Below are positions 8,090-48,700 of a stretch of 64,000 nt of DNA, piece by piece; the stretch's first letter is position 1, and the number at the start of each line of letters is the position of its first letter. Below the pieces are notes generated by a model. That model ran no database searches. It saw only the letters and a list, made by a program, of their open reading frames with translations, and had not been told where the DNA came from. Source of the DNA: Antedon bifida (Eukaryota; Echinodermata; Crinoidea; Comatulida; Antedonidae); NCBI GenBank assembly GCA_963402885.1, contig OY727094.1, forward strand, positions 7,442,501 through 7,506,500. The letters run 5' to 3'. Position numbers and translations under genes: made by a program.

Positions 8090-9332
8090 AGAGAATGATA
8101 AAGGTTCTTACCGCTGTCGCCATGGACACCAAATTTTATGAAGAGGAGTCCCTAAGACAACTAAACGTCTTCCTTATAGTAAACCGATCCCACTCTGGAA
8201 ATTGCGAATCTCTAAGAAGTTGAAAAACAACATCGATCCATTTTTTTTCCAGATTTATGACCTCGTTTGACACAATCCAGTTCCAGACAGGTTTTAATGT
8301 TTATAGATTATTTATATGTAAATCCACAAAGCAGGCAATTCTGGTTGACCCATCATTTCGGACATCGGCACTGCTACAAAACCTAATAATGTTGATGATT
8401 ATCTTAGCCCATATGTGATCTCCTCTCATATATTCAGTACTCTACGGACTTTATCCGCAAAATTAACTAAATTCAAAATTTACATAACACAGTTATGGCA
8501 CTATGGCAAAAAAGTATCTCTTACAAACTTATTATGGCAAATTGTCTGTCTCTTTAACCAAATAATCACTTTTTAAAATGTAGATATATCTCCTCGTCAG
8601 GATATCATATGAAGATAATCTGGACATGAATTTCTTATTGAATATCAATTCGAACCACCAAAATTTAGGCCTACAAAGATATTTTAAATTTGTACATTAA
8701 AGTGACCATGGAAAATGGTATACACTTAAAACTCAGCTATTCCGTAACCACACGGATAGACATACGGCCATCCCCGAATTTCGTATCAAACGTTGTTTAT
8801 CAAATTTAGATTTTGAGAGTCGTACAGAAGAACTAACCGGACCGGAAATTACAGACGAGAGAATTATATCCAAACTGCTAAAAAGAAAGCATATATTATT
8901 CTTTGCTGTTAAACGCAAAGAAGGTTTTATAAAATCTCTTTGTTCTGACGTACAAACCACGCCAGCCAAATTGGACTGCCATTGGTCACAATATATCGCC
9001 TTAGGTTGGCTCACAGAGAGACACATGCCCATTCTACCATCCACTGGACATCTCAAAGACTACCCATATTGTTCAATTTCGTAGACCTTACATGTCATAC
9101 TTACTCTAATGACATTCAACATTTGGGCAGTCACCCTTTTGGTCAATCTTGCAAAACTTGTTTATTAGTCCACTCTACTAACAAAAATTGGCCTCATTTT
9201 GAAAGTCTAACCAAAAATGTTGTTTATCTCGTATACAGTAATATTTATGGTAAACAGTACATCGGAGAAACCAAAAACATTCCATTCTCTATTAGAATGA
9301 TGCAACATAACAGTCGACAATCAAAACATTGA
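8090..9332 (+). mobile_element. Decayed retroelement with RT motifs and GIY-YIG domain (Penelope-like)
   Basis: Several short frames on the plus strand, broken by stops and frameshifts, resemble Penelope-like elements. Near 8115-8165 one frame reads AVAMDTKFYEEESLRQLN, like the conserved start of these reverse transcriptases. Near 8325-8410 another reads GNSG, a stop, then PIISDIGTATK and DDYLSPYV, like the RPIIS-x-IG-T block. At 9150-9332 an open frame gives CKTC, then NVVYLVYSNIYGKQYIGETKN and an R-x-x-x-x-H, which is the GIY-YIG nuclease core. The reverse transcriptase is clearly dead. Element ends are not defined. Confidence 0.72.
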
Positions 9333-19200: not shown

Positions 19201-22200
19201 TAAATTTACTTTTTATATTAAAAACTATGTTAGCTACCTGCCTATATGTTTTATTTCTATGGTACTGTATTCCAAAGTCTAGTGGGATTATGGTTAATAG
19301 TGTCCACTAAGGATGACTTTTGACCCCCGGCTAGAATAAACACATTACTGTAGATGTATAGATGATTAGTAGATGTTAAGTACTGGGCCTGGTATGCCTT
19401 TCTTGATAAGATGATAAGATTAAAATGATACTTTCAGTAAACTTTTAATTATTAAAAATATCTGACATTTTCATTTAATAACCTAATCTCTTTCTGATGC
19501 CCACTGAAGCAGAACAACCTTTGGCAATAATATATCCTTTTAATAAGTGGTGGTACTCTTAATATTGCTAAATCTTGGATAGGAAATACAGACATGTAAC
19601 AGGAAAAGTCTAGGTGGTAGCTGAGGTAGCTTTGTCTACACTATAATGTGATGTGATTACACTATAATATAATTGTGACACATAAATGTGATGTGCCCAT
19701 ATATGGACATGATGATGTCATATCACTACCATATTTGGGTACTACCATTTTTGTCAAACTAGTTTGATAGTGTAAACAGAGCTTTAGAATATGTTGATGG
19801 GAAATGATTTAAAAAAAAAAACAGCCTGTGCTTATGTATTTAAATTGTTTTTGTTTATATATTTTTTTTTTTTTAGGTAACTTCTTATACTTTGTTGGTA
19901 GAAATGAATATTTTCTGTTAGCTGGTAGATTATTAGCAGGTAAAGTATGCATTTTCATTGTCAATTGTTTAATACATACACTCCTTTGCTTTAAAGTACC
20001 TTCAGAAATGAAACAAGGAAAATGTGTTTCTCTTGTGCACCCCTGGACACCCCTCTCATCATGGGCCCTTCAACAACAATTAATTTTAAATTTTTATAAA
20101 TTTATAAATTAAATTTAAATTACAGTATACTACTACTACTACTGTTTGTTTATGTCTCTTTGCAATATCATAAAAACCTACCCCTTGAACAATTACACTA
20201 CTCAGGGCAATTACATCCTACTCCATCCCAATCATCCTGTCGTGGTACAGAAGATTTCACCCCGTTTTTTCACTTTAGCTGCCTTAATGAGGCAAGATGT
20301 GCTCATTGAAGCGTATCTTCTCTAACGCAAGCTACGCAAACATGCATGTTAATTATCGAAATGCCTAAGCCAAGGTTATTACAATTAATTTTGTACCTTT
20401 CTTTTTAGGTGTTGGTGGAGGAGTAATGTCCACTATCTTCGCACAAATTTCGCGCACAACACCCGTCAATAAACGTACAGCAGTGATATCAATGGCCATG
20501 GCTTCTCGTCAGTTTGGTCTTCTTTTTGGTCCTGGATTTAACATATTTTTATCTAAGCTTGATTTCAAGATTGGCCCATTTGAAGTCAATGATTTTACAT
20601 CGCCAGGGGTAAGGATTATTTACATGTATATCTTTACAAATACCATCAACATTTAGAGGCTAGAGCACAATACCAAAATGTTGTTTAATTGGGACCTGGT
20701 ATGCTCTCCCTATTGCCTTGATCTTTTAATAGAAGATTTTCATGCTACGGAAGTCATCTTGCAGAGATGACAGTCGTGAACAACAGAAATAACATAGCGT
20801 TTTCAGAGGATTTCAGGACACCATATTAATTTTAAAAATCGTACCTCCTGAATGGAGTTACTGTAAAATGATTGAACGTATCACGAAAATCGTCTATGAA
20901 ATTGGACTGTGTCCAAATGTTTCTACGTTATATTTAGATTCCAGTAATAATAAGTATCATTCCTGTGCAGTTTTGAATTAAATTTTATTCCAAAAACAAA
21001 ATGCCCTGATTTAATATTTTATTTTAATCGAATCAAAAGTAAATTCATTTCAATTTCTTTTCAGTTGTTTATGATGATCATGTGGATCCTACTGCAGATA
21101 CTAATGATTTTTATTTACTTTGATCTCCCATTGGTCAGTGATGAGACAAATTTTGATGAACCGGTCAAAAGTCAATCATCAACCAATGACGTAGCCAAAG
21201 GAACACTTACAAATAATGATTTGTATGAGAGAACTCAAACACCCACTAAATTAGACTCTGCCATTGAGCACATGTCAATCACTGTTAGCGGCAGCTATGA
21301 AGAATCTGACGCAATAAAAGCGCAATTATCCGCTGCAAAGAGAAGGCGACCGGTCGTATCACCAGTTGGTTCTACAAGATCGATGTCTCCACATTCCAAC
21401 GATGAAAAAAGATCCGATATTGATGAAATTAAATCGATTTCAGATTCAAATAGTGTTTTAAGAAATGGAGGGGTTCAAAGTTCCGATTACGGAACAGTTA
21501 CTGTGAATAATGAGAAAGAAGTAAAGAATAAAGAAGAAGACATGGAACTGTCACTTATACTTAAAATGAGATACAAGGATATGACATTTTTTCAAAAGTT
21601 AAATGGTAAATTATTTTATATTTCTTGCAAAAGTGATGGTAAAAGGCTTCATCTCAGTTCATGATTCCCCCTTTGAGGAAAAAAAAGAACCCTCTAATCC
21701 TGGCTACGGAGCTAATTTGTGAAATTTACTGCCCTTTACATTAATATGCACGTAAAATAGTTAATTTATGTTAAAGATGTATTGTCTCCCAAAAACATGA
21801 AATATAAAGATTAATAAAACTTTGAATAGATTATTTATTAAATTTAATCACTTTCATAGAAAAAATTAATGTTTTCACTTACAAAATAAATGGTTAAATT
21901 CAACCAAAAACCCATTGGCTGGCAGCCAATTTGACTATTTTTTGCTTTAAATTACAGTTTTTTAGGTAAACAAATGTTTTTTACGATACAATTTTTGGTC
22001 AAAGTGGATAAAGATTATACATTAAAATGGCATATTCAACAGGGGGACAAACATCTAATATATTTTAATTGTGGGTTTTATCTAACAATGTTATTGCTGT
22101 GTTTTTTTTTGCTTAGAATTGATACGAGAAGAAATCGTAGTAATTTTGTTTGCTCAGTTTGTGTTTTTGTTCAATCAAACAGCTCTTGAGGTAAGTGAAA

Positions 22201-25954: not shown

Positions 25955-28900
25955 ATGGAGTTGGATACAAAAAAGAAACTGACAACAGTGGCTAGTTGGT
26001 TGATATTTTTATTTGGTGGTATTGAATACGGTAGGTACAGTAAACGAGGTCCCAGTGGTGCCATATGACATAATAATACTCTACTATTAGCTTCTAGCTA
26101 GGCTTATTTTTACTTTTATAAAGTGAGGAGGAGTGTGGGAAGCTACGGACTATAAGGTAAAGTTTTCAATTATTTATGTATAAATTGTGTGATAAATCAA
26201 ACATCAATATAAGGCAAGACTTACAAAAAGAAAGCCAAATATTTTACAGTACCTCTCCTTGCAGACTTTATTATTGTCTTTCTGCAGCGGTCATAATTCC
26301 AACACTAAACCTATTCCTTTTGGATCTGGGAGCTCCGCAATATTTCCTTGGAGTGGTTATATCTGCTTTCAGTTTCTCTGGACTTTTTGCAGCTCCGATA
26401 TTTGGAATAGTGCAGGACAGAACATCAAAGACGAAATCACTTATTCTTTTTGCAAATATGTTTGAAATTGTTGGTAAGTTTTCTTCGCATTTTCTTTTTC
26501 TTTGCATTTTCTTTTTCTTTGTAACATTTTATGATAAAATAATAATTCTTCTTTTTACTATTTAACCTATTCTTACATTTACCAATTTGTACAGGAAATT
26601 TAAAAAAGTGGGCTAAGTCAGTATAGTTTAAAAATATCTACTATTAAATATGTTAATAGCCTACGGGTACTTTTTTTTCAAAGATGTATTTGACAGCATG
26701 CATTTGTAAATCTTCCTAGCTTCCAGTTGACAAATTAATTGACCAGGCATGACTGTTCACAATTGTTCACTTCCTTTTGTTTTATGTGTGAAAGCAATAA
26801 CATTTCATATAAAATTACATTTTTAGTCCTTTATTTTTTTTAAACTTAAGACCAAACTTGACTTATTTGTGTAGTCCCCGACGTCACAACGAGAGGCCAA
26901 AGTTTCTTTTTTTTAAACATGAGCAAAATCATAGTTTGGCAAGAAAGCTTTCTAAAGTTTGACTGTGTAAAGTAGACCAGGTGCAAAAAATACTACACTA
27001 CAGTTATATAGTATGCAACAATGAGAAAAGGAAAAGGGATTGTTAATATTGTGGACTATGGATGACCTATGACCCCAGACTGAGTAAACACATATTGCTT
27101 AGTTGTAATCACAACCAAACTTCACAGACTGTTTGCAAAGTGATTTTTAATCTGGTACCCTCCAGTTTAAAATGTCTAGTGCTGATGAAACTTTAAACAT
27201 TGCAATTAATAATGTCACCTATTTTTCTCACATGCATAGCCAACTGACTTCGTTTAAATAAATAAGTTCGCTACATTATTTGTAAAAGATAGGAGTTACT
27301 GCTCTTGATTCATTAACTGGGTCAAAATAATAAATCTGCAGGATTGTAAATTTCGTTCCTTCCTCTAGGAATATGAAATATGGAACAGATTCCAATTAAT
27401 TTTTAATAATTTAATAAAAATCAATGTTCTTATATTTTTTCTTTATATTTTTTAAGGTAACTTCTTATACTTTGTTGGTAGAAGTCAGTATATTCTGTTA
27501 GCTGCTAGATTGTTAGCAGGTAACGCATTGCTTTTTTTGTACATTCATTCATTTGACAATCGGATAATTATCATTTTTATTATTATTTGTAGAACTTTCA
27601 ATTCCAGTACTTACATTGTATTTCTGTGTTTTCCTTTTTAGGTGTGGGTGCAGGCGTAACAGCAACTATCTTTTCGCAGATTTCACGCACCACACCCGCC
27701 AATAAACGTACAGCAGTGATATCAATGGCCATGGCTTCGCGTCAGTTTGGAATTGTTTTCGGTCCTGGATTTAACTTATTTTTATCTAAGATTGATTTCA
27801 AGATTGGCCCATTTGAAGTCAATGATTTTACATCACCAGGGGTAAGGACTATTGAGTTTATGTCTGAATTACATGTGCATGTTACTACCAACAATTAGAG
27901 GCTAAAGGAAAATCCTGAAATCTTGGACAATTTGGAACCCATTTTTTCATTTCTTTTCAGTTGTTTATGATGATCATGTGGATCCTACTGCAGATACTAA
28001 TGATTTTTATTTACTTCGATCTTCCATTGGTCAGTGATGAGTCAAGTTTTGATGAACAGGCCAAAGGTCAATCATCAACCAATGGCGTGACTAATGAAAA
28101 ACTTACAAATAATGATTTGTATGAAAGAATTGAAGAATCGGATGAAATGAGAAGGCAACCAGTTGGTTCGACAAGATGTGATATTGATGAAAATAAATCG
28201 ATTTCAAATTCAAATGGTGTTTATAAAAACGGAGGGGTTCAAAGTTCAGATTACGGAACAGTGAATAATGAGGAAGGAGTGAAGAATAAAAAAGAAGAAG
28301 ACATGGAACTGTCACTTATACTTAAAATGAGATACAAGGATATGACATTTTTTCAAAAGATAAATGGTAAATTATTTATAATTCTTGCATCTCATAACCT
28401 TTCATGGAATTTACTTCCCAGTTTGTTGTTGTTTTTTGTTTGCTGGTGTTCATTTTTATCTGTCAATTGTTTTCTTTACTTAGAATTGATAAGGGAAGAA
28501 ATCGTAGTAATTTTATTTGCTCAGTTTGTTTTTTTGTTCAACCAAACAGCTCTTGAGGTAAGTGTGAAACATTTAATGTAGGCTGCTGTGACTCGGTAAG
28601 GCCATCCTGTCGTATAAGCCACCCCTGGTATAACCCCACACCTGGTGGTTGTAAGCCCACTCCTTACTGAATCCTGAGCTACTGTATAAACTCATCGCTA
28701 AGTGTAAGCTTACTCGATCTAATTTTAAACCAAGATAATGTGCTAAAATTATGTCAAACATTGTTTCTTATAGGCTTCACTCACTCCACTTGCAGAAACA
28801 TTTCTTTCATTTGGAGAAATACCAAATAGCCTGCTGTACTGTGGAGCTGGATTTGAGGTAGAGAATTACTAGATTAAAGACAGGAATACTGGACTGGTTT

Positions 28901-36570: not shown

Positions 36571-36779
36571 TTATGGATAACTAATCGGAGGGGAATCCTT
36601 TCGTTCTTTCTCATTATAAAGCAAACTGGAATCTGGTGATTGGTCTTTCCCACTGTTGCACGTTTCAATATGTTTCGCCCAATCCCCCGACTGGCATTGA
36701 GGACTGCAATAGACCTGTGCATGACAAAGCGAACATTCGAACTGACCAACCAGACCACAAACACAAAGCTTATCAATAT
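36571..36779 (-). other. MYND zinc-finger exon, probable last exon of PKHD1L1
   Basis: After a textbook acceptor (CTTTTTTTATTGGCAG) this exon encodes IDKLCVCGLVGQFECSLC, HAQVYCSPQCQSGDWAKH and IETC, then a polar tail ending PPISYP and a stop. Seven cysteines and one histidine sit in MYND order: C-x-C, C-x2-C, Y-C-x3-C-Q, W-x2-H-x3-C. The first pair is one residue closer than the usual C-x2-C. MYND fingers bind proline-rich peptides (PxLxP type) in partner proteins. The exon starts with two bases that complete a codon, fitting the phase-1 donors at 37731 and 37674 and also the donor of exon 38511-38363. No other upstream exon or start codon is evident in the 0.8 kb before it, so it is best read as part of the fibrocystin-L gene. 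A separate small gene is possible. Confidence 0.65.
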
Positions 36780-39700
36780 CTGCCAATAAAAAAAGACATG
36801 GAAAGCGTTAGTATACACAAATACAATTGTTATTGTTATATATTATATTTAATTACATCAAAACTTGTACAATTTTTTAGGGAATTGATAGCAGATCTAG
36901 ATAGGTGTGTGAAAAAGTTGTTAGATATAACATGCAATAGCGAGTTGTCCATTTGAAAACACACAGATGAAAACAGTCACTTATTGACTATGATGGAAAC
37001 AACAAGCAATTCTGTAGATTGTAAACATGTCATGTTTCCGCAGCCATAATAAAAGTTGATATCAGTTAATTTTGTAACCAATCAAATAATTAATAATAAA
37101 ATAAAGTGTGCATGATCAGTCATTACCGAACAACCAAGTGCCCAATTAAAATGCAATAATTAGTCCTCATCAAAGGTTAAAATTATCGCAAATTTTCCGT
37201 TAATTATCTGATTTGAATGAGATATTTCCTCGGTTACTTTTTCTCGAGCGGAATCGGTTAAACCCTGTTTTCACAAGAAACTTTTTTTGTTAATTTTTAA
37301 TTTCATTTTTCGCTGTGGAAAACATGCTTTTCATAATGTTGTCCATTTTGTGAAAGCAATGAAACCCTAATTTATTAATTTGTTTTGGCAAAAGCGAATA
37401 ACTTTATTAAAATTACAAAATGGCACATTCAATGTTTAATTGTTTCATGTTTTGGGAGAAAACAAAACATCATTAACTACATACATTTAAATACGTAATC
37501 AATAAAAAAAAATGAAAAAAAAGAAATATAGACAAATGTGTTTCATAAAGAAATATGGTATCCAAACTCCAGTTTGTTAATTTGAGAATTATAATTCTTA
37601 CTAATATTTTTTAGTTTTCATTTTGGAGGTGGAGTATTGAAGGAAACAGCTTTTTTCACAAGTTTATCATCACCATCCCGTTTAAAATATACAAAATCTG
37701 GCTTTGTATTCGGGGGTGTAAGTGTATTACCTTTATCATCTAGGAAACGAAGGAGGATGCTATCGGAGGCATACACCTCGTGTACGATCTGTCTCTTCTC
37801 ACTCGCTCCGTCGATGTCTTTCAAAGTTTCTGTGAGTAGCACGAACGGCTGGTCTAACTTGAGACTGGCCAGTTTCGGTTTAAGCTCTGCACGCATGTTA
37901 CTGAGCGGTCCAACGAGATTCACATTCATTTCACCCAACTTTGTGAAACTTCTGTTTGGCATTAGCTGCATAATGAACATGCTAGCGCGGTCTTCTTTCA
38001 CTGTTGGCAAAAACATGAATTTTGTCAACTTGCAATCGATACCTCAAAAGTAATGATATTCTAGGCCAGCTTTATTATATAATACTTAATTTGCAGAGTT
38101 CATCATGGAAAAAATAATCGGGCTTTTTAACAAAATTCTATTATTGTATTCTATTTATTGTGTGTTTAGAAAGTTTCTTGATGTGGTTCCGATATTTCTG
38201 TTCTGTTTACATCAGTTAAAAATAACTCATAAATTTCCTGGGCTAAGCTTCATTTTAGCCCAGAGCTGGGATTTGTAGAGAGGGTTTATTTTCCTCTTGA
38301 GTTAGGCTAGTTAGGCCTATACTTTCTTTGCTGATCGCTAGTTCAGAAGGGCTTGTACTTACCATGTTCTTCCGAACCCTGTGCAAATCCGGGTGGCAAG
38401 GCTGTGGAGACAATCTCTGGTGTCCTGCTTGGATGGTTGAAGCCGGGTGACTTACTTCGACTGGACGATGGGCGAGATGTGTCATCTTTCAACGGCTTGG
38501 TTTCATCAAAGCTGAAATGTGACAAAAATGAAGCAGCGATTATAATAATATGTTAATCATATTAATAAGTAAAACATTTTAAAATTAAACCTTATATTGT
38601 CTACGACCTACCTGTATTATCTAAAGGCAAGTCATTAAGTGATTTAATTTATAAAGGCCCATTATTATAGTTTGTTTTTAAAAAATGTGTATAATTAGAT
38701 TGAAAATATACGAGAAAATAAATATGCCATGGTTGTGCAACATTCTATAATCCATTTAAAAAAGTGGAAATCAAGTTGGGTATTCTCTTTTAGCATTTAT
38801 GGGTCTTCATACATAATGAAACATTAACTTACTCTCCTTCTGGAGTTTCTATAGTGAACACCGGTGTGTTTCTACCATGCAAATCAGCACGACTAGATAT
38901 TCTTGGTGCTTCTTCCTTCTCTGTCAAATGCATCGTTTCAACTGCCGCCAGTTTGTTGTCTGAAATACAAACACAACATTTTTAATCAATTTGTTCTGGA
39001 AGAAAAACATCTTACTTACTTAATTGGACTGTCCTATCAATTCAAAGACAATGTATATTTTGATTTACTGTATATAAGCAGTATATCACTAACTTCTATG
39101 TACAGTTTTTACATTTTCTTGGACTCTCTCATTTTCCTTGAAAGGGGTGTCGATTGTAAGATAATGGTATGGTTTGGTTTATATATCTCCCCCATAAAAT
39201 AATTACTACACTATATACGTATTTGACATATTTTGTAACCATCCCATTTTCCATTTGAGGGGTGTTCTTTCTAAAATAGCAGTTTTTTAGTTATTACAGG
39301 CATGTATTTGTAACTCCCTCTTCCCTGATACAGGCAAGTATTTTATGCGTTTTCGGTATATATGTATGAAAATATCGTATCTTTTATTGGTTAAACTTAA
39401 ATTTAACTTACTTTGTTTATTGCAGAAGAATTTGTAAATGGTGAAAATCATGACGATGACCAAAATCAGTAAAAATAATACCAGTAGAACTATAGCCCAC
39501 GCAGGTATCCCAGAATCCTCTTCATCCTTATAAAAAGAAGTGTTTCAAGTAGATTTATATAAGAGTTATTAAAGGCAGTCCTTGTATTGGCTTACAATAT
39601 ATTTAAAAGTGTGCATCATGAGATTTGTACATACAACTAATTGAAAACAATAGATACACTCGCAAAAGTAGTTGCCCTCAGTATCAGGGAAACCAAATAT

Positions 39701-42700
39701 ATGTAGGGCAACTAAAAATGTAAATTGTTGGTCCCAATGGACAACCACGTAAAATATAAAAAACTATTACAACAATGTTTTACATCAATTGTGGAATACA
39801 ACAGTCCAGTCTCGATATAATTAGTTGCCCTCAGTCTAGGAGCAACCAAATGTATGTAGCAGGGCAACTAAAAATTAAAACGGTCGGTGCCGATGGACAA
39901 CAATGTAAAATCTCAAAAAAGATTGCAACATGTTTTGCATCAATTGTGGAATACAACAGTCCAGTCCAGTCTGGATATAATTAGTTGCCCTCAGTCCAGG
40001 GGCAATCAAAAATGTATGTAGTGCAACTGAAAATTAAAATGGTTTGTGCCGATGGACAACCATGTAAAATATAAAAAAATATCACAACAATGTTTTGCAT
40101 CAATTGTGGAATACAACAGTCCATTCCAGTCTCGATCATTGTTTGATCATTTTGGACACTATATGTTGAGGCCCAAAAATCTGATCTTCAACATTATTTA
40201 AGGATAAAAGTGGAGTAGGTTTGTTATAAAAACAAATACTGAATGTTTTGTATTTGTTGCATAGGGAGAAAATTTCCATTTTTTAAAAGCCTAACTTATT
40301 TGTATAATGTTTACATACAAATACAATTACATTAATACAATTAGATGTTGTAGTGTCTGCATGTGATATTACTTTTCTTTTTTTAATTATTTAACAATCG
40401 CACCAGAAAAAATATAGAAATTTAATCCAAAATAGACATGAAAATGTGGTAGACTACTTACATCGGAAGGGCCATACGACTCTCCATTCACTTTCATGTA
40501 GTACTTGTCAGCTTCAATAATGAAGCCATCAATGAACAAGGTAATACGTCCAGCTTGTAGATCATTGTACATAGTAGCCACAGTGCTATCCACATTCCCA
40601 ACCATGGTGAAGTCAATTCTAATTGAACCTATAAGGATTAAATACAATCATGCAAATGAATAGGAGTTCAGAGTTAAAAAAAAAATAAGGTGGGGTGAGA
40701 CGAAACTAGTAAAATAGGTATTTAAAGATGCTTGAAAATTGAAATCCTAAAATAGGCCGTGTTTCCACAGCCATGTGACCATTAATCACAATGCAATGAT
40801 TTGTCCTTCAGGTCAAATGTTAAAAATTATTGCATTTAAGATAATTATTTGATTTGAATGACTCAGATAGTTAAGCTCTGTTTCTACAGGAACTTTATCG
40901 GTTAATTTTTGTCAGTGGAAATACAGCTTAAATGTCCAATGGAGGATTGCTAATGAGCAATGTGAGAAGCAGAATCTTAAACAATAATTATGCTGCTTTT
41001 AACCTTTAACATGATAAATGTACTTATGTTAAAAGTATGTACTCAAATACAAGCGTCTGTTGCGATTTTTTGTGGTTAAAAAAAACTGTACTATTTGTAA
41101 CACCAAGTATAATATTAAAATGGTCTACAGTAAAAACAAACTTTACAATAGTCTATGCTTTTTAGAATATATTGAAATTATATCTAAAAAAATGGTGAAC
41201 AAGAAAAATTATAGAAATTTATATAATAAAATAAAATTATAAATCTAACCTTCATATATACGCTCAACGGTAAATGTGACATTTGTGTAGATATTTGAAA
41301 ATTTGTTAAGAAAGTTGATTTTCACATTCTCTTCCTTGCCGGATGCAAACGAGCCGTAATTCGCTAAGAAACTTAAAGTAACTTCCATTGGCTCTCCTGT
41401 GTGGACGACCATCGAGGCAGGGACAACATCAAACGCAGTCAGTTGCTTTGTTAACAGGTAGGAGCTGGAGGTTGTGGTTGTCAGTGTGATCTCCAGAATG
41501 TACTGGAAGCCAGTTCCGTCAATGGAGAGGTCTGTAAAAATGCCGTTTGCAAGTGCCAAATCGATTACAGTAGTTTTGTTGCCCGTCAGAGACCCAAAGT
41601 AATTATCAGGTTCATACAACTCGATACTTGCGGTCCAATTGTAACCCTAAAAGCAAAATTATTACACAAATTTAATTATATAAATTAATATTAATTATGC
41701 AAAACAAAATTATCAAATATAACACAGAATACTTTGATTTATCTTGTATCAAGGTTATACTCATTTTTTAGTGGCTTAGGGACATTAAAATTCACTTTAG
41801 AATTTCCAGTTTGGTACTACCAACCATGTGGAGCTAGGTGATAGTATTGAAAGGGTAAAAGATACCTCTAAAAGTAGACTGTTAATGCTAAATAAGCAGG
41901 CCTAGGTTAGGCATGGCTGCCGTAGGCCTATAACTAGATTTAATTGAATGAGTATAATAATACTTACATAAGATGCAAGATCTGTAAGCTGTAATCCACT
42001 TAAAACATCAGCCAGGCTAAATCCTACAGTAAATTTCTCTCCAACTGTTACACTGACATTAGGTTGCGAACCAACGGCAACTTCAAATTCTCGTTCTGCG
42101 ACCGAGAATGCCTGGCTACTGACAGGTGCTAGAGTCGAAGTATTTGGATAGACGATGGCAAAGTCCAAGATGTATCCTGATCCTGCTGTGTCTAGCATCG
42201 CTTCTGTGAAGCTGGCGACGCCATTGACGATGCTAACGGTTGTGTTGCCAGTAAGCATAGATCCTTCTGGTCCAGTTCCCGATCTCAGACTTACTTCCAT
42301 CTTCCAAGGATTTGATGAATGTCCAAGATTCAGTACAAGCTCACCCTATTAAAACAAAATATAAATTTGTTGAACTATAATTTGAAGTGTAGCTTTTTCA
42401 TCATCGGTAAAGCATAATGACTGTTGTGAAATAACCATTTTGAAAGTGTTTGTGACCATTGACCTTTTGTGACCTCAACCATTGACATTTTGTAACCTAC
42501 TAATAGACAGACTGGATATATATTAAAATAGGATGAAGCAGTCAAAAACTGTAAGACTTTTTCCTTTTGAATTTATTTTACGACATTTAGAGTTTCTCTT
42601 TAACCATGACCTTTTGTGACCAATGACCTTTTGTGACCTCAACCTATTTATAACCACATTAGAGTAAGATTTTCTATCTTTCTTTACCTGTGCATCAAGA

Positions 42701-45700
42701 ACAGATACTTCAACGACAAATGGCCATGCTCTACTGGCGTCAGACGGTTGTTGTGAAACCAGTAAGTTGCTAGGAAACTGGTAAACAACCTCTACAACTG
42801 GTTCCTCCTCCTCACTATCAACTTCACCATACCTGTGTATAAAAGAACAAGTAATAAAAAAACAGATACTTTACTGTAGACTATTACATTGTAAATCTAA
42901 GCTCTGTCTACACTATCGATGTGACAACAAAATGTGTCCATATATGGGCATGATGACATCATTACTACCATATTTGGGCACATCACACTAGTGTGATAGT
43001 GTAGACAGAGTTGAAGACTATGTAACTAGCAAGGACTACTCACGGCGTGTCACCGCTGTCTGGTCCACCAGTTTCATTAGTTGCTCTTTCACCTCCTGTG
43101 GGATCGGTAGCTGGTTCCACAGGATCAGACATAGCTAATGATTGCACTTCCACATCAAGACTTTCAGATAGCTCTCCAGTTTGGGCAGCGTCAGCGATTT
43201 GTGATTGGATATCAAGCAGGTCATCATAACCAAGAGACGAATTGCCTGCTGTATAGTTTCCTGTTTTAGAAAAAAAATGAATAGATGTTTTAAATTAGAG
43301 TCATGTAAACATGTTTTAATTTAAAGGGGCTGAATATAAAACAAGTACTAGAGTAGAAGGGCTTTTGGACCTAACAAAGTGTCCCCTTAATAGAGTGTCC
43401 CCTGTATAGAGGTTGGCCTTGTGTGAAAACACATTGACTTTTGATTCATTTGATTTCTCATTCAACAGGACAGTGTCCACTTAATATGGTTTTGGGAGAC
43501 ACCCAAGAGGACATTGTGCTGGCTCCCTAAAGTGTGCCCTTAGGGGTTAAACTTACCATATGATGCGTCTGTAACATTGCTGTTGGAAGTAGAATTGCCT
43601 ACATCTATGTTTGTCGCAGGTTGGTCACCGATTTCAATTTCTACCGTTACCTCATCAGAACGCCTTCTACGACGAGTACTTCCCTCCCTGATGACATCCA
43701 CAACCCGTATTCTGTCACTAGAAATTCCCAGAAGATTTGCCAGATTCTGTACAAGATTCTCCTCAAAGAAATCATCAACAGAAACTGCCGGAACTCCGAT
43801 AGCGACCATGACTACAGGAGTCGTGATAATGTCAACAGAATCTCCACCACGCACTAGAACCCAGAGAGTTTGGCGCTCGCGGTCAAAATAGTTGGCCCCG
43901 TAAATATTTGAAGTTGGTGTGGGCTGAAATTGGTCATCGGGAAGGTTTGGATCTTTATCAACCCAAATAAAGTTACCAGACCTGTCAGTGCCACCATTGT
44001 TTGGCATCACATAGCGGCCTTGATGATATACATCTAAACGTTGAGGATTGGCGTACCAGATACCGACAACAACCTTTTGATCGTCATTAGAGTTTAGAAG
44101 ATGCAGACGGAGATGTTGAGGGTTTGTACTGCTCATATACATCTCGTAAGTCTTCCCTGTTGCCACAATGGACATGAACGTACTGATACGCTCCTGACAT
44201 GTGTAGCCGTGGCACCAGCCGTGATCTTGTGGTCCGTTGATGAGATCTACAGTGTCTTCTGAACACATAGCAATTGGTGACAGACGACGTACCTCAGTAT
44301 CTGGGTCCATGCTCTCTATGATCATCATAGCATGATCCAACTCGTGGCATTTATACGCATTCCAGTTTGCGTCCCATTCACACTTGTCCGTTCCTACTCC
44401 TACAATACCTACAAAGCAAGCATCAACCAAAGTTTAATCCCATTCACACATACAAAAACAAGTAATTTTTACTCTCCAGGAAAATGGATGACAAAAATAA
44501 TTAAAAGGTTGTTAACAAATGACTATCCATGTCAAGATTATCATACATTTGAAAAATAAATATTGACAAAAGAAAAAAAGCCCAAAATTTTACTATGGTA
44601 CAAATGTGTGAAAACGTTATCATTTTATCAATGTAAAACCTCAGAAAGTAATTTTTATAGATAATTTTTACAGATTATATCAATGTTTACATTAAGGAGT
44701 AAGTAATGTTAATTCACTGTTTGCATGCTTTGGGACACAACCTCGATATATCGTTTGGATCCGACCGACGACACATTGATTGACCTGATTTAGGTAGTCG
44801 CAAATCAAAAGCTCTCTATTGATGTAAGAGAGTACAGTATTTAACAAACTATATTATTATATAATTAGTGGGTCAACTTCAACACAATCACAGTTAAAAA
44901 AGCGATACACACCATGGAGAAGGACCATCGAATAAGGCTGCGTCACACATTTTGAGGAGTCCATGCCCTGTTCGCATCACTTTGTATCTGCCTAGTTGAA
45001 TCTCTAGGTATATACAGGTAATACCTCTATGGTTTCTCAGTACAAAATATTATAAATATTAGATAGCATTTTTGTACAATTTTATCCATGTTACCTTTAT
45101 TTGGAAACTTTTCGCTGGCCGAAATTTTCGAACCATCAGTGTTTGTAAGCGCCATCTTAGGAATTCTGTAATCTCCAAGACCATACCTTGGATCGCCATC
45201 CCATTCGTAACCAGAGTTTGCTACGATTGTTCCTGGTCCATTACCGACAAATGATCCATCTTTGTCTGTAATCATTATTTTCCGCATCGCATCACAGGAC
45301 ATATCAACGCAATCAGCTGGGTTTGCATGACTGTAAATGAACAATTATTATTTTAATAAACAGACAATTTTATTTGTTTTATGGTACTAAATTTCGGATT
45401 ATGTAAATAAAACATTATTGATTTGATTTGTAGTGTCAGAGAAAGAGAGATATTGAGGCATGACATAGTTAATTATGATTTATAAACATCACACAATAAT
45501 TAATATGCAGGTTAAATGGAGGAATACAAAAACAGTAAAAAAAATAGTATAATAGAATGTATGAAAATCCCATTGCAACCATGTAGAAATGTTATACTGT
45601 AACTTTGTATGCATAATGTCATATGCACAACACAGCCGCACAGAATTGATTTCTCACATATGGAAACACTATTGGAAGGGCATTTCCTTATGTTCCTTTC

Positions 45701-48700
45701 CTCTTTTATGGGAATCCAGCTTAAAGCTCTGTCTACACTATCAAACTTGTTTGAGAACCAACAAAGTGCTAATTTTCATTCCCTGAATAGTGTTAAAAAG
45801 ACAATGTATTCCCCTTGTTCATTTAATATAAAAGTGCCACAAGTGACGTCACTACATCAAAAAAGTTCATCATTTATCTTTTCAAAAAAAACATGATTTG
45901 CATATTATACCTAATACTATAGGGCTTTTAGCTCTGTCTACACTATCAAACTTTATGTGACAAAAAAATTAAATATGAAAGTGATGTGCCTTAATATGGT
46001 AGTGATATGACATCATCATCATATATTCGTCCATATATTGGCACATCAAATGTTTTTGTCACATAAAGTTTGATAGTGTAGACAGAGCTTAATAATGGCC
46101 CTCAAATATCAACTCACCTAACATCAGGGTTAAAGATGAAGAGTTTATTAGTTTCAACAACATTAGCAAAACTTGTTTCCTCCACCGTTGTTGGATGAAT
46201 ACCATCTTGGTTGCCAGGGTTAGGTGCCATGGCATAATCACGAGAACCGGAGCAGCCTTCTCGGAAATATGCAAATTTGACATCTAGGTTGAAATAAAAG
46301 AAAAACAAATCAATTAACCTTTTTAGTTTACTGTGTTTTACAAATGATGTTTACCAAGTGAATTGAACATGTAAAAGTACTAATAAACTAACCATACTAT
46401 AAAGGTTGGAATAAGCACTGCCAGAGTCATTTGGACTTAACATTTTTGACACCATGGAAAGCATAACATTCTCCCAGAACCACTGATAATACAACATACC
46501 TTGTAGTTGGGTTAGACCAGCAATGGCAGGGTAGTTTTTGATACCATGGAACGCTTTAACTGGAGCATTGTTTGACCCTGACATAAAATTTGTCATCATA
46601 AATCCAATCTTGCCTCCACCAGGGGGATTTGGAGGCGAGTGTACAGGATTACACTGGTCTTCATTCTCCGGTGCATTCTGAAAATGAAATCATAAATGCT
46701 GAAGTGCTAATGCTACCATAAACACAAAATTACAAATACACAAACTAAAACTAGTTTTAACAACACTTTCATAAATTTCAGTGGGTTGTATGAGCTATTA
46801 ACCATTATATTGACTGTAATCCTATTCAAATTCTTCCCTGGATTCAGCCTCAAACATTCAACAAGGCATACTGGGCAAAATAGTTTGTTTTACCTGCAAC
46901 TCTGAACAGCTGAATGATGGGCTTGTGCCAATAATAGTAGAGCTCTCTATTGTAAAGGTCTTCGATGAAGGTTCATGGCTGAGTGCAGGTGGTCTATAAA
47001 TGTATGGTAATATTCCTATCTTGTTATCAGCCAGAGTTACATCCGACACCACAAGAGAAGAAGTTGTCTCTAAATAAATCCCATAGTAGTAATTCTTCCA
47101 GAGGAAGAAGCCGTTAATTCTTGAGCAGTGATGTTGAGAATCGGTTGGTAATATCATAACTCCTGCTAATGCAGAGTGGCCCTCGTTGTTTACCCATAAT
47201 GCATCTTCAAAACAATCTTCTCCACCCACACGGTACAGGAGTCTTTCTGATCCCGCAACAGTGTTGTTAGCTATGACCGTGCTAAAGGCGTTTTGTATTT
47301 CGATACCAGCTGGCCATGTTTTGTCTTCTTTCAAGAAGCGTTCTTGATACGTACCAGGGAACACCGTCAAAGATACTAGATTTCCTGCGATGACATGCCT
47401 TGAACCCCAAGCAGAAATACCTAAGAAAATATTCAGGTTTAGTTAATATTTGTTTTTACTGCCTCATTTGCATACATAACACATGGATAAAAACTATAGA
47501 GAATGATACGAAGGGAAAAGTCTATAATGCACACTTTGGCCAATAATCGCTCCGATTGGAGAAATCTTGTTGAGTGCGCTATGTAGCAAGACGTTCAGCG
47601 ATCGTGATGATGAAGGTGTACATACAATAGCGATGTAATTGTTTCATGACGACAACAAATAGAATATATTTTATACTATTAACCATACATTTACCCTTCT
47701 TTGAAAGATATATAATATAATACAGGGTGTGATTACATAGGAAAACAATCGTTTTGTTGCATTAATTGTTGGTGAGAGATAATTTTACAGTAGTAAATGT
47801 TTTTCTGGGCATATAACCTCACCTGCTCCAACTGTGTGGTGAATGACGTTGTCTTCAATATGGACACCAAAAGCACCAAACACACCAATAGCAGGACTGA
47901 ATCCATGATGGAAGGCGCATTCACGTACATACGAAGGGTTCGCTACAGTGACCTCTCCAGTATCAAGAAAAGCAACAGAGTACCGCGGATCGTAGTTGTC
48001 TGGCCAACCTTCTTGCCCTGTATGGTAGAACTCTACATTCGAGATTCGGGCATAGCCTAGGAAAGAGAACAAAGATAAGGAATATGTGTAATGTAAACTG
48101 TACACTATACACAAATATAACAAAATATCTGTTATAATATCATATAAATTGGAAGTATATTTCGGTTAAGTAAATTTTTGGGTCAGAATCATGATATAGG
48201 AGGAGGGTGTCGCCATTCCTAAAAATTCTGTCACTTCTTTTCATATTCAACATAACTGTGCAACATACATTGTATTAGTTATTATTCTACATACATTGAC
48301 CAAAATTTAAATTCATGATAAAACTAATTATGGAATCTATGGACAACTACTTACCTTTGTGTTCATTACCATCCTGTTGAAATTTGCCAATAAGTACTCT
48401 AGCTCCAAATGATTCTTCATATAAATCATTGTAGTCAGCCCCAATAATCTTGATGTTTCTCGACAGGAGACCAACCTCAGCAGCTTCTGTGTACATTAGT
48501 CCATCCTCGATAGTGGTTGTTTCAGCTGCATTCAAAATAAAGTTCAAATTGTATTTTTACGTTATAAATAAATAACTACAAATTAAATTCCATTCTGGTT
48601 TTGTGTAATATATATTTGGTTAGTGGTAGGCTCAGTGGAAAATTCAGGCACTTTCAGCTTTAAATAGAATGCAAAGCTATCAGAAAAAATGTTGAAACCC

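Follow-up and report, generated by a model that had tools for sequence, protein, structure and literature searches.

The minus strand of the 64-kb stretch of Antedon bifida DNA analyzed here (the whole of it is called the window) carries the 3' portion of a gene of very large size, which by its domain set is a fibrocystin-L (PKHD1L1-type) gene and whose last exon, near certainly, adds a MYND zinc finger to an unusually long cytoplasmic tail. Two paralogues in the same genome share this arrangement, and the tail would probably serve as a docking surface that couples the ectodomain to the cell interior.

Identity of the gene and its ectodomain

The assignment is based on the combination of TIG repeats, G8 domains, CEMIP-type helices, and a transmembrane segment. 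Part of the ectodomain, exons and introns included, lies between positions 46858 and 63793 (minus strand, as are all features of this gene given below), was recognized by Pfam, and is collinear with a paralogue. A Pfam search of the window frames gave TIG/IPT repeats (PF01833, 247.1 bits, five stretches within one frame) and CEMIP/TMEM2-like beta-helix regions (PF24606, 191.4 and 42.8 bits). With the exon blocks joined end to end, G8 domains were recovered twice, at 111.4 and 77.3 bits. In the genome scan, the G8 of this gene appears as three pieces at two places. One frame with an ectodomain exon (43540 to 44433) resembles CEMIP domain X with a score of 19.3 bits, below the cut-off of 27.6. 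It also contains RRRRRS, a polybasic site of the furin type that precedes the transmembrane exon by several exons. The site is common to the two copies compared, being GRRRRS in the paralogue L009. By eye, repeats with a unit like ACTGGACTGTTGTATTCCACAATTGATGCAAAACAT can be seen in the intron just upstream of the transmembrane exon, at about 39700 to 40150.

The vertebrate PKHD1L1 is alike in its TIG repeats, G8, CEMIP/TMEM2-type regions, and single transmembrane segment near the C-terminus, and this is also the domain set of the human protein. The window gene has the single transmembrane segment near the C-terminus but not the very short cytoplasmic end of the human form. That this end is short in vertebrate PKHD1L1 had been stated in the first-pass annotation and is borne out for human, where it measures 8 residues in the available text of PMC11043200 and 9 in the accessible part of the review PMC13424714, compared to ca. 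258 residues in the window gene, where the tail includes a further domain and a MYND finger.

Exons of the tail and the join to the MYND exon

The transmembrane exon (AWAIVLLVLFLLILVIVMIFTIYKFF, 39412 to 39526) matches the transmembrane exons of the paralogues (E values of 1.1e-4 and 7e-4) and is followed by a first cytoplasmic exon (38833 to 38959), for which similarity to the paralogues is weak (E values of 0.9 and 2.3), and by a linker exon (38363 to 38511) with the conserved motif SSSRSKSPGFN-PSRTPE--TALPPGFA, 65% identical to the paralogues over 48 amino acids. Next comes the tail exon (37731 to 38000), which encodes a 90-amino-acid cytoplasmic domain found at four genomic loci. These three exons after the transmembrane one are all mutually in phase. 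An intron of 951 bp (36780 to 37730) separates the tail exon from the last coding exon (36571 to 36779), which comprises the MYND finger (ligands, first to last, from 36765 to 36658), 28 more residues, and a TAA stop. As delimited in this way, the cytoplasmic part is ca. 258 amino acids long, compared to 231 in L009, and its conserved pieces are the linker motif, the 90-amino-acid domain, and the MYND.

The join between the last two exons uses the donor AAAG/GTAATA (the slash marks the junction), with 37731 as the last exon base, and the acceptor TTTTATTGGCAG/AT, with 36779 as the first. It is a phase 1 join, and the product reads ...FLDDK-DIDKLCVCGLVGQFECSLCHAQVYCSPQCQSGDWAKHIETC... through to the TAA at 36571. 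This in-phase connection of 37731 to 36779, leading into a MYND and a stop, had been proposed from the sequence and is confirmed by the joined frame, by Pfam, and by the same place and phase in two paralogues. The two sites had also been described as a strong donor and a textbook acceptor; they are indeed present, but by a rough matrix built from the estimated sites of the window gene itself both are ordinary: 37731 scores at least as high as 12 of the 32 donors of the gene, and 36779 at least as high as 15 of its 26 acceptors. The alternative donor at 37674 is weaker than that at 37731 (4/32). In codon usage, the MYND exon scores close to neutrality (-1.8), with its other two frames scoring worse.

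In the MYND frame, a stop is present at 36810 and an ATG is lacking ahead of the acceptor; translation from an ATG therefore requires splicing to an upstream exon. In both paralogues (L009 and L010), the splice sites, AAG G/GTAAGT and ACAG/AT, fall at the same residues and in the same phase, for which chance is no explanation, and the intervening introns measure only 308 and 299 bp. We consider it near certain, on this exon arrangement, that the fibrocystin-L gene truly ends with the MYND exon. A small separate gene adjoining fibrocystin-L would be the other way to account for it: the join is predicted from genomic sequence, and the introns do hold combinations of an ATG and a GT that reach the MYND frame (11, 3, and 2 in the three introns). 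None of these combinations has a GT[AG]AG donor, however, the paralogue introns leave only 299 to 308 bp, and there is no in-frame ATG in the window. We regard a separate gene as extremely improbable and reject it on the phase, identical at three loci, together with the missing ATG and the paralogues.

Copies of the tail in the genome

The MYND scan of the genome gave 26 places at an E value of ≤0.001 (50 candidates scored), and for each of them outside the window a surrounding stretch of 3 to 10 kb was searched for the tail domain. It was found at two, L009 and L010, which lie in tandem on the same chromosome and strand as the window gene, ca. 0.9 Mb away. The exon order transmembrane, linker exons, tail, and MYND recurs in both. 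Identity between the window gene and the paralogues is 53% over the 90 amino acids of the tail and 74% and 69% over 42 amino acids of the MYND. When L010 and the adjoining 18 kb were compared to the window gene, leaving out cross-matches between repeated domains, 33 collinear blocks were obtained, from the TIG at 63.8 kb to the MYND at 36.66 kb; the transmembrane exon is outside these blocks at that cut-off and was matched separately. Collinearity with the window gene also holds for L009 in the ca. 3 kb upstream of its transmembrane exon. The identification of the gene, of the splice, and of the MYND, which had been made within the window, is supported by paralogues located beyond it.

A scan with the MYND exon gave three strong places and then a DEAF1-like locus at an E value of 2.6e-4. 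For G8 (10 best candidates scored), nine pieces were found, all above the cut-off, forming three clusters: one in the window gene, one at 8.372 to 8.378 Mb, upstream of L009 (to which it was assigned by position), and one at 8.424 to 8.428 Mb, upstream of L010. A MYND exon is thus present at all three G8-bearing loci found, among the best candidates that these scans score.

The tail domain itself was detected at four places, all on the same contig (C7) and with E values of ≤1.1e-19, followed by one unrelated place at 0.57; three of the four have a MYND. The fourth copy (8.327 Mb; L053/L063), with its tail exon at about C7:8327364-8327618 within L063 (C7:8324000-8332000), shares 76% identity with L009 across 87 amino acids and ends three codons past the domain. 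No MYND was found within 3.3 kb downstream, nor any G8 between this copy and L009 among the best candidates of the genome scan. It could be traced upstream to the linker exons and is apparently a partial copy that lost the MYND.

This fourth copy is naturally without a MYND and would favor the production of two isoforms by the window gene, one with the tail exon spliced to the MYND and another in which it is read through to the stop at 37618 and ends by intronic polyadenylation. There are 37 open codons past the donor (37618 to 37730) and then AATAAA at 37408 and 37376, and the read-through, with a codon score of -1.5 (again the best of its frames), does about as well as the MYND exon. The read-through frames of L009 and L010, by contrast, stop after five codons, and neither intron contains AATAAA or ATTAAA. 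On these signals, the window gene might have an isoform that lacks the MYND, a feature that is not conserved, and we think it quite unlikely that both forms are made; equally doubtful is the switch that they would provide, adding or removing the docking module.

Pattern searches outside animals retrieved 22 stretches in viral contigs and 53 in GTDB genome contigs, none of which was confirmed as a relative, in collections that are not meant for animals. In the A. bifida genome, other MYND-bearing frames of ca. 550 to 580 amino acids form clusters (L022, L024, L018, and L023, at 11.01 to 11.03 Mb of C7, 15.32 Mb of C15, and 5.53 Mb of C16). Several of these frames have a second MYND-like motif 0.45 to 1 kb away, and some include one internal TAG. 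These contigs belong to the 11 large ones of the genome (C1 and C7 to C16, 19 to 37 Mb). Another contig, C27 (15,844 bp), is mitochondrial. Its cox1 was aligned with the cox1 chains of solved structures (best, 7o37_a) and has Asn and Ile at conserved positions under genetic code 9 where code 5 would give Lys and Met, so that AAA codes for Asn and ATA for Ile. The genes, which apart from cox1 were named by reading, are arranged as cox1, cox2, atp6, cox3, nad3, nad4, nad4L, nad5, nad6 (on the other strand), and cob, with nad1 and nad2 also on the other strand; both the code and this arrangement are consistent with an echinoderm.

The tail domain and the MYND finger

The tail domain together with its read-through had no Pfam match up to an E value of 1. 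Among PDB sequences, the L009 tail had no match up to an E value of 10, and the matches of the window tail joined to the MYND (up to an E value of 1) were confined to the MYND part. A single-sequence AlphaFold2 model of 89 residues has a bb-a-bbb arrangement with low confidence (mean pLDDT, 59.3). Foldseek against the PDB gave no match at an E value of ≤0.001 and mixed unrelated folds in the best 50 rows, and no fold is claimed for this domain.

The ligand spacing of the finger in the window gene is C-x-C-x7-C-x2-C-x5-C-x3-C-x7-H-x3-C, and all eight Cys/His ligands are present in the window gene, L009, and L010, the first pair being C-x-C. Against zf-MYND (cut-off, 22.7), the window exon reaches 25.6 bits with Pfam and 31 when the genome is scanned, and the paralogues score 29.1 and 29.8 bits. 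In none of the three copies does the Pfam match cover the whole of the first zinc pair, the profile starting at 4, 9, and 13 (the window exon at 4 of 39). In the usual MYND this first pair is C-x2-C, and the alignment to DEAF1 shows C-x2-C where the window MYND has C-x-C.

Among solved structures, the best sequence matches to the window MYND (phmmer against the PDB) are the MYNDs of DEAF1 (E values of 1.9e-4 and 4.7e-4) and of the ETO type (ETO/CBFA2T, 0.004 to 0.012); ZMYND10 was also matched (0.008 to 0.014). The window MYND shares with DEAF1 and ETO/CBFA2T the zinc ligands and the signature CQ--DW--H---C, and differs from them in the C-x-C of the first zinc pair; besides, these are not known to be membrane proteins. 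MYND fingers bind short proline-containing peptides, and the residues of the ETO MYND that contact the peptide are Ser, Gln, and Trp. This set is incompletely retained in the window MYND: in the phmmer alignment, Gln and Trp are kept and Ser is replaced by Pro. The finger had at first been called a transcription-cofactor-type reader, which is too narrow since some MYNDs belong to proteins of the cytoplasm, one example being ZMYND10, whose role is cytoplasmic and whose MYND was one of those matched.

Selection on the tail and the MYND

The window gene differs from L009 at the first, second, and third codon positions by 12, 7, and 25 nucleotides in the MYND (41 codons) and by 28, 28, and 66 in the tail (89 codons), and neither aligned stretch contains an indel. 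These changes translate into 11 amino acid differences out of 41 in the MYND and 42 out of 89 in the tail. When the same number of nucleotide changes was placed at random, under a simple uniform null (2,000 trials), the mean was 26.5 (minimum, 17) for the MYND and 66.6 (minimum, 57) for the tail. With the NG86 method, dS between the window gene and the paralogues was saturated; YN00 gave a dN of 0.33 and a dS of 1.13 for the MYND of the window-L009 pair and no value for the remaining pairs. The substitutions indicate purifying selection on both exons. It should be noted that L009 and L010 arose by a recent duplication and count nearly as one copy, which leaves, in effect, two lineages within one genome as the basis for conservation. 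Their tail exons are identical (267/267 bases), and their MYNDs differ at 3 of 123 bases, giving two residue differences, one of them Gly to Ser beside a ligand Cys.

A docking tail in a fibrocystin-L

The family of this protein is known, and its architecture with a MYND tail was not found in the literature searched. The literature search, judged from titles and the beginnings of abstracts, gave nothing on a MYND in PKHD1L1, fibrocystin-L, or fibrocystin, and no literature was found on an invertebrate receptor with a transmembrane segment and a MYND cytoplasmic tail. The predicted product spans the membrane once, with a huge ectodomain outside and ca. 258 residues inside, the latter formed by a serine/proline linker with the SRSKSPGF-PSRTPE motif, the domain of ca. 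90 residues, and the MYND zinc finger. We propose that, on the cytosolic side of a ciliary or apical membrane, the MYND and the adjoining domain would most likely hold a partner whose motif is proline-rich or hydrophobic. The tails of the window gene and L009 contain no PxLxP motif, and the SPPISYP with which the window tail ends is absent from L009, which makes a ligand in trans likelier than self-binding. As for the membrane concerned, the proteins that mass spectrometry of sea urchin embryos showed to be specific to apical tuft cilia included a fibrocystin L (SPU_023486), according to the available text of PMC3812683. A docking surface of this kind is probable in our judgment, given the domains and their constraint. 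The incompletely retained peptide-contacting residues, the C-x-C of the first zinc pair, and the near-neutral codon score of the MYND exon weigh against this reading. A long inner tail with a protein-docking finger suggests that signals may be passed into the cell, and direct signaling by the tail, as had been suggested from the sequence, is a reasonable possibility.

The vertebrate fibrocystin (PKHD1, also called polyductin) offers another comparison, with a related ectodomain and a long cytoplasmic tail, and cleavage of the ectodomain is at least possible in the window gene. In the accessible part of PMC13424714, the fibrocystin tail is given as 192 amino acids and called unique among vertebrate proteins; a MYND goes unmentioned there, which would set the fibrocystin tail apart from the window tail. 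The review also describes a Notch-like processing of vertebrate fibrocystin, in which ADAM, gamma-secretase, and a putative proprotein convertase take part, and a nuclear tail. The main rival to a docking platform is modeled on such a route, and release of the tail after ectodomain cleavage had likewise been raised from the sequence: a Notch-like release, in which the ectodomain would be cut at the polybasic site, the remaining stub cleaved, and the MYND tail sent to the nucleus as a cofactor reader. The presence of the polybasic site in both the window gene and L009 fits this, as does the mention of fibrocystin among the humoral proteins of holothurian coelomic fluid in the available text of PMC12119288. 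The distance of several exons between that site and the transmembrane segment speaks against it, and the nuclear end point is disfavored because simple patterns detect neither a monopartite nor a bipartite NLS in the window or L009 tail. Release is possible, though unlikely, and docking at the membrane is preferred.

In published descriptions, human fibrocystin-L is a coat protein that hardly extends into the cell, and fibrocystin is its disease-linked relative. A conserved tail with a docking finger in an invertebrate fibrocystin-L suggests that the family has the capacity of a receptor. Tentatively, and with a probability well below even, the MYND tail might be old in echinoderm or deuterostome fibrocystin-L and have been lost in vertebrate PKHD1L1; the ancestor would then have been a signaling receptor, and the vertebrate fibrocystin tail would either have evolved again or keep a derivative role. 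The tail is a concrete module for the pull-down of partners, and the question of fibrocystin signaling becomes testable in a ciliated echinoderm embryo.

Other features of the window

Elsewhere in the window, between about 20954 and 28581, similar plus-strand frames (20954 to 21664 and 27919 to 28581) suggest tandem copies of a membrane transporter, of the major-facilitator type by eye. At 8701 to 9332, there are overlapping plus-strand frames, one of them with a YIGETKN-type stretch, perhaps (also by eye) the remnant of a retroelement.
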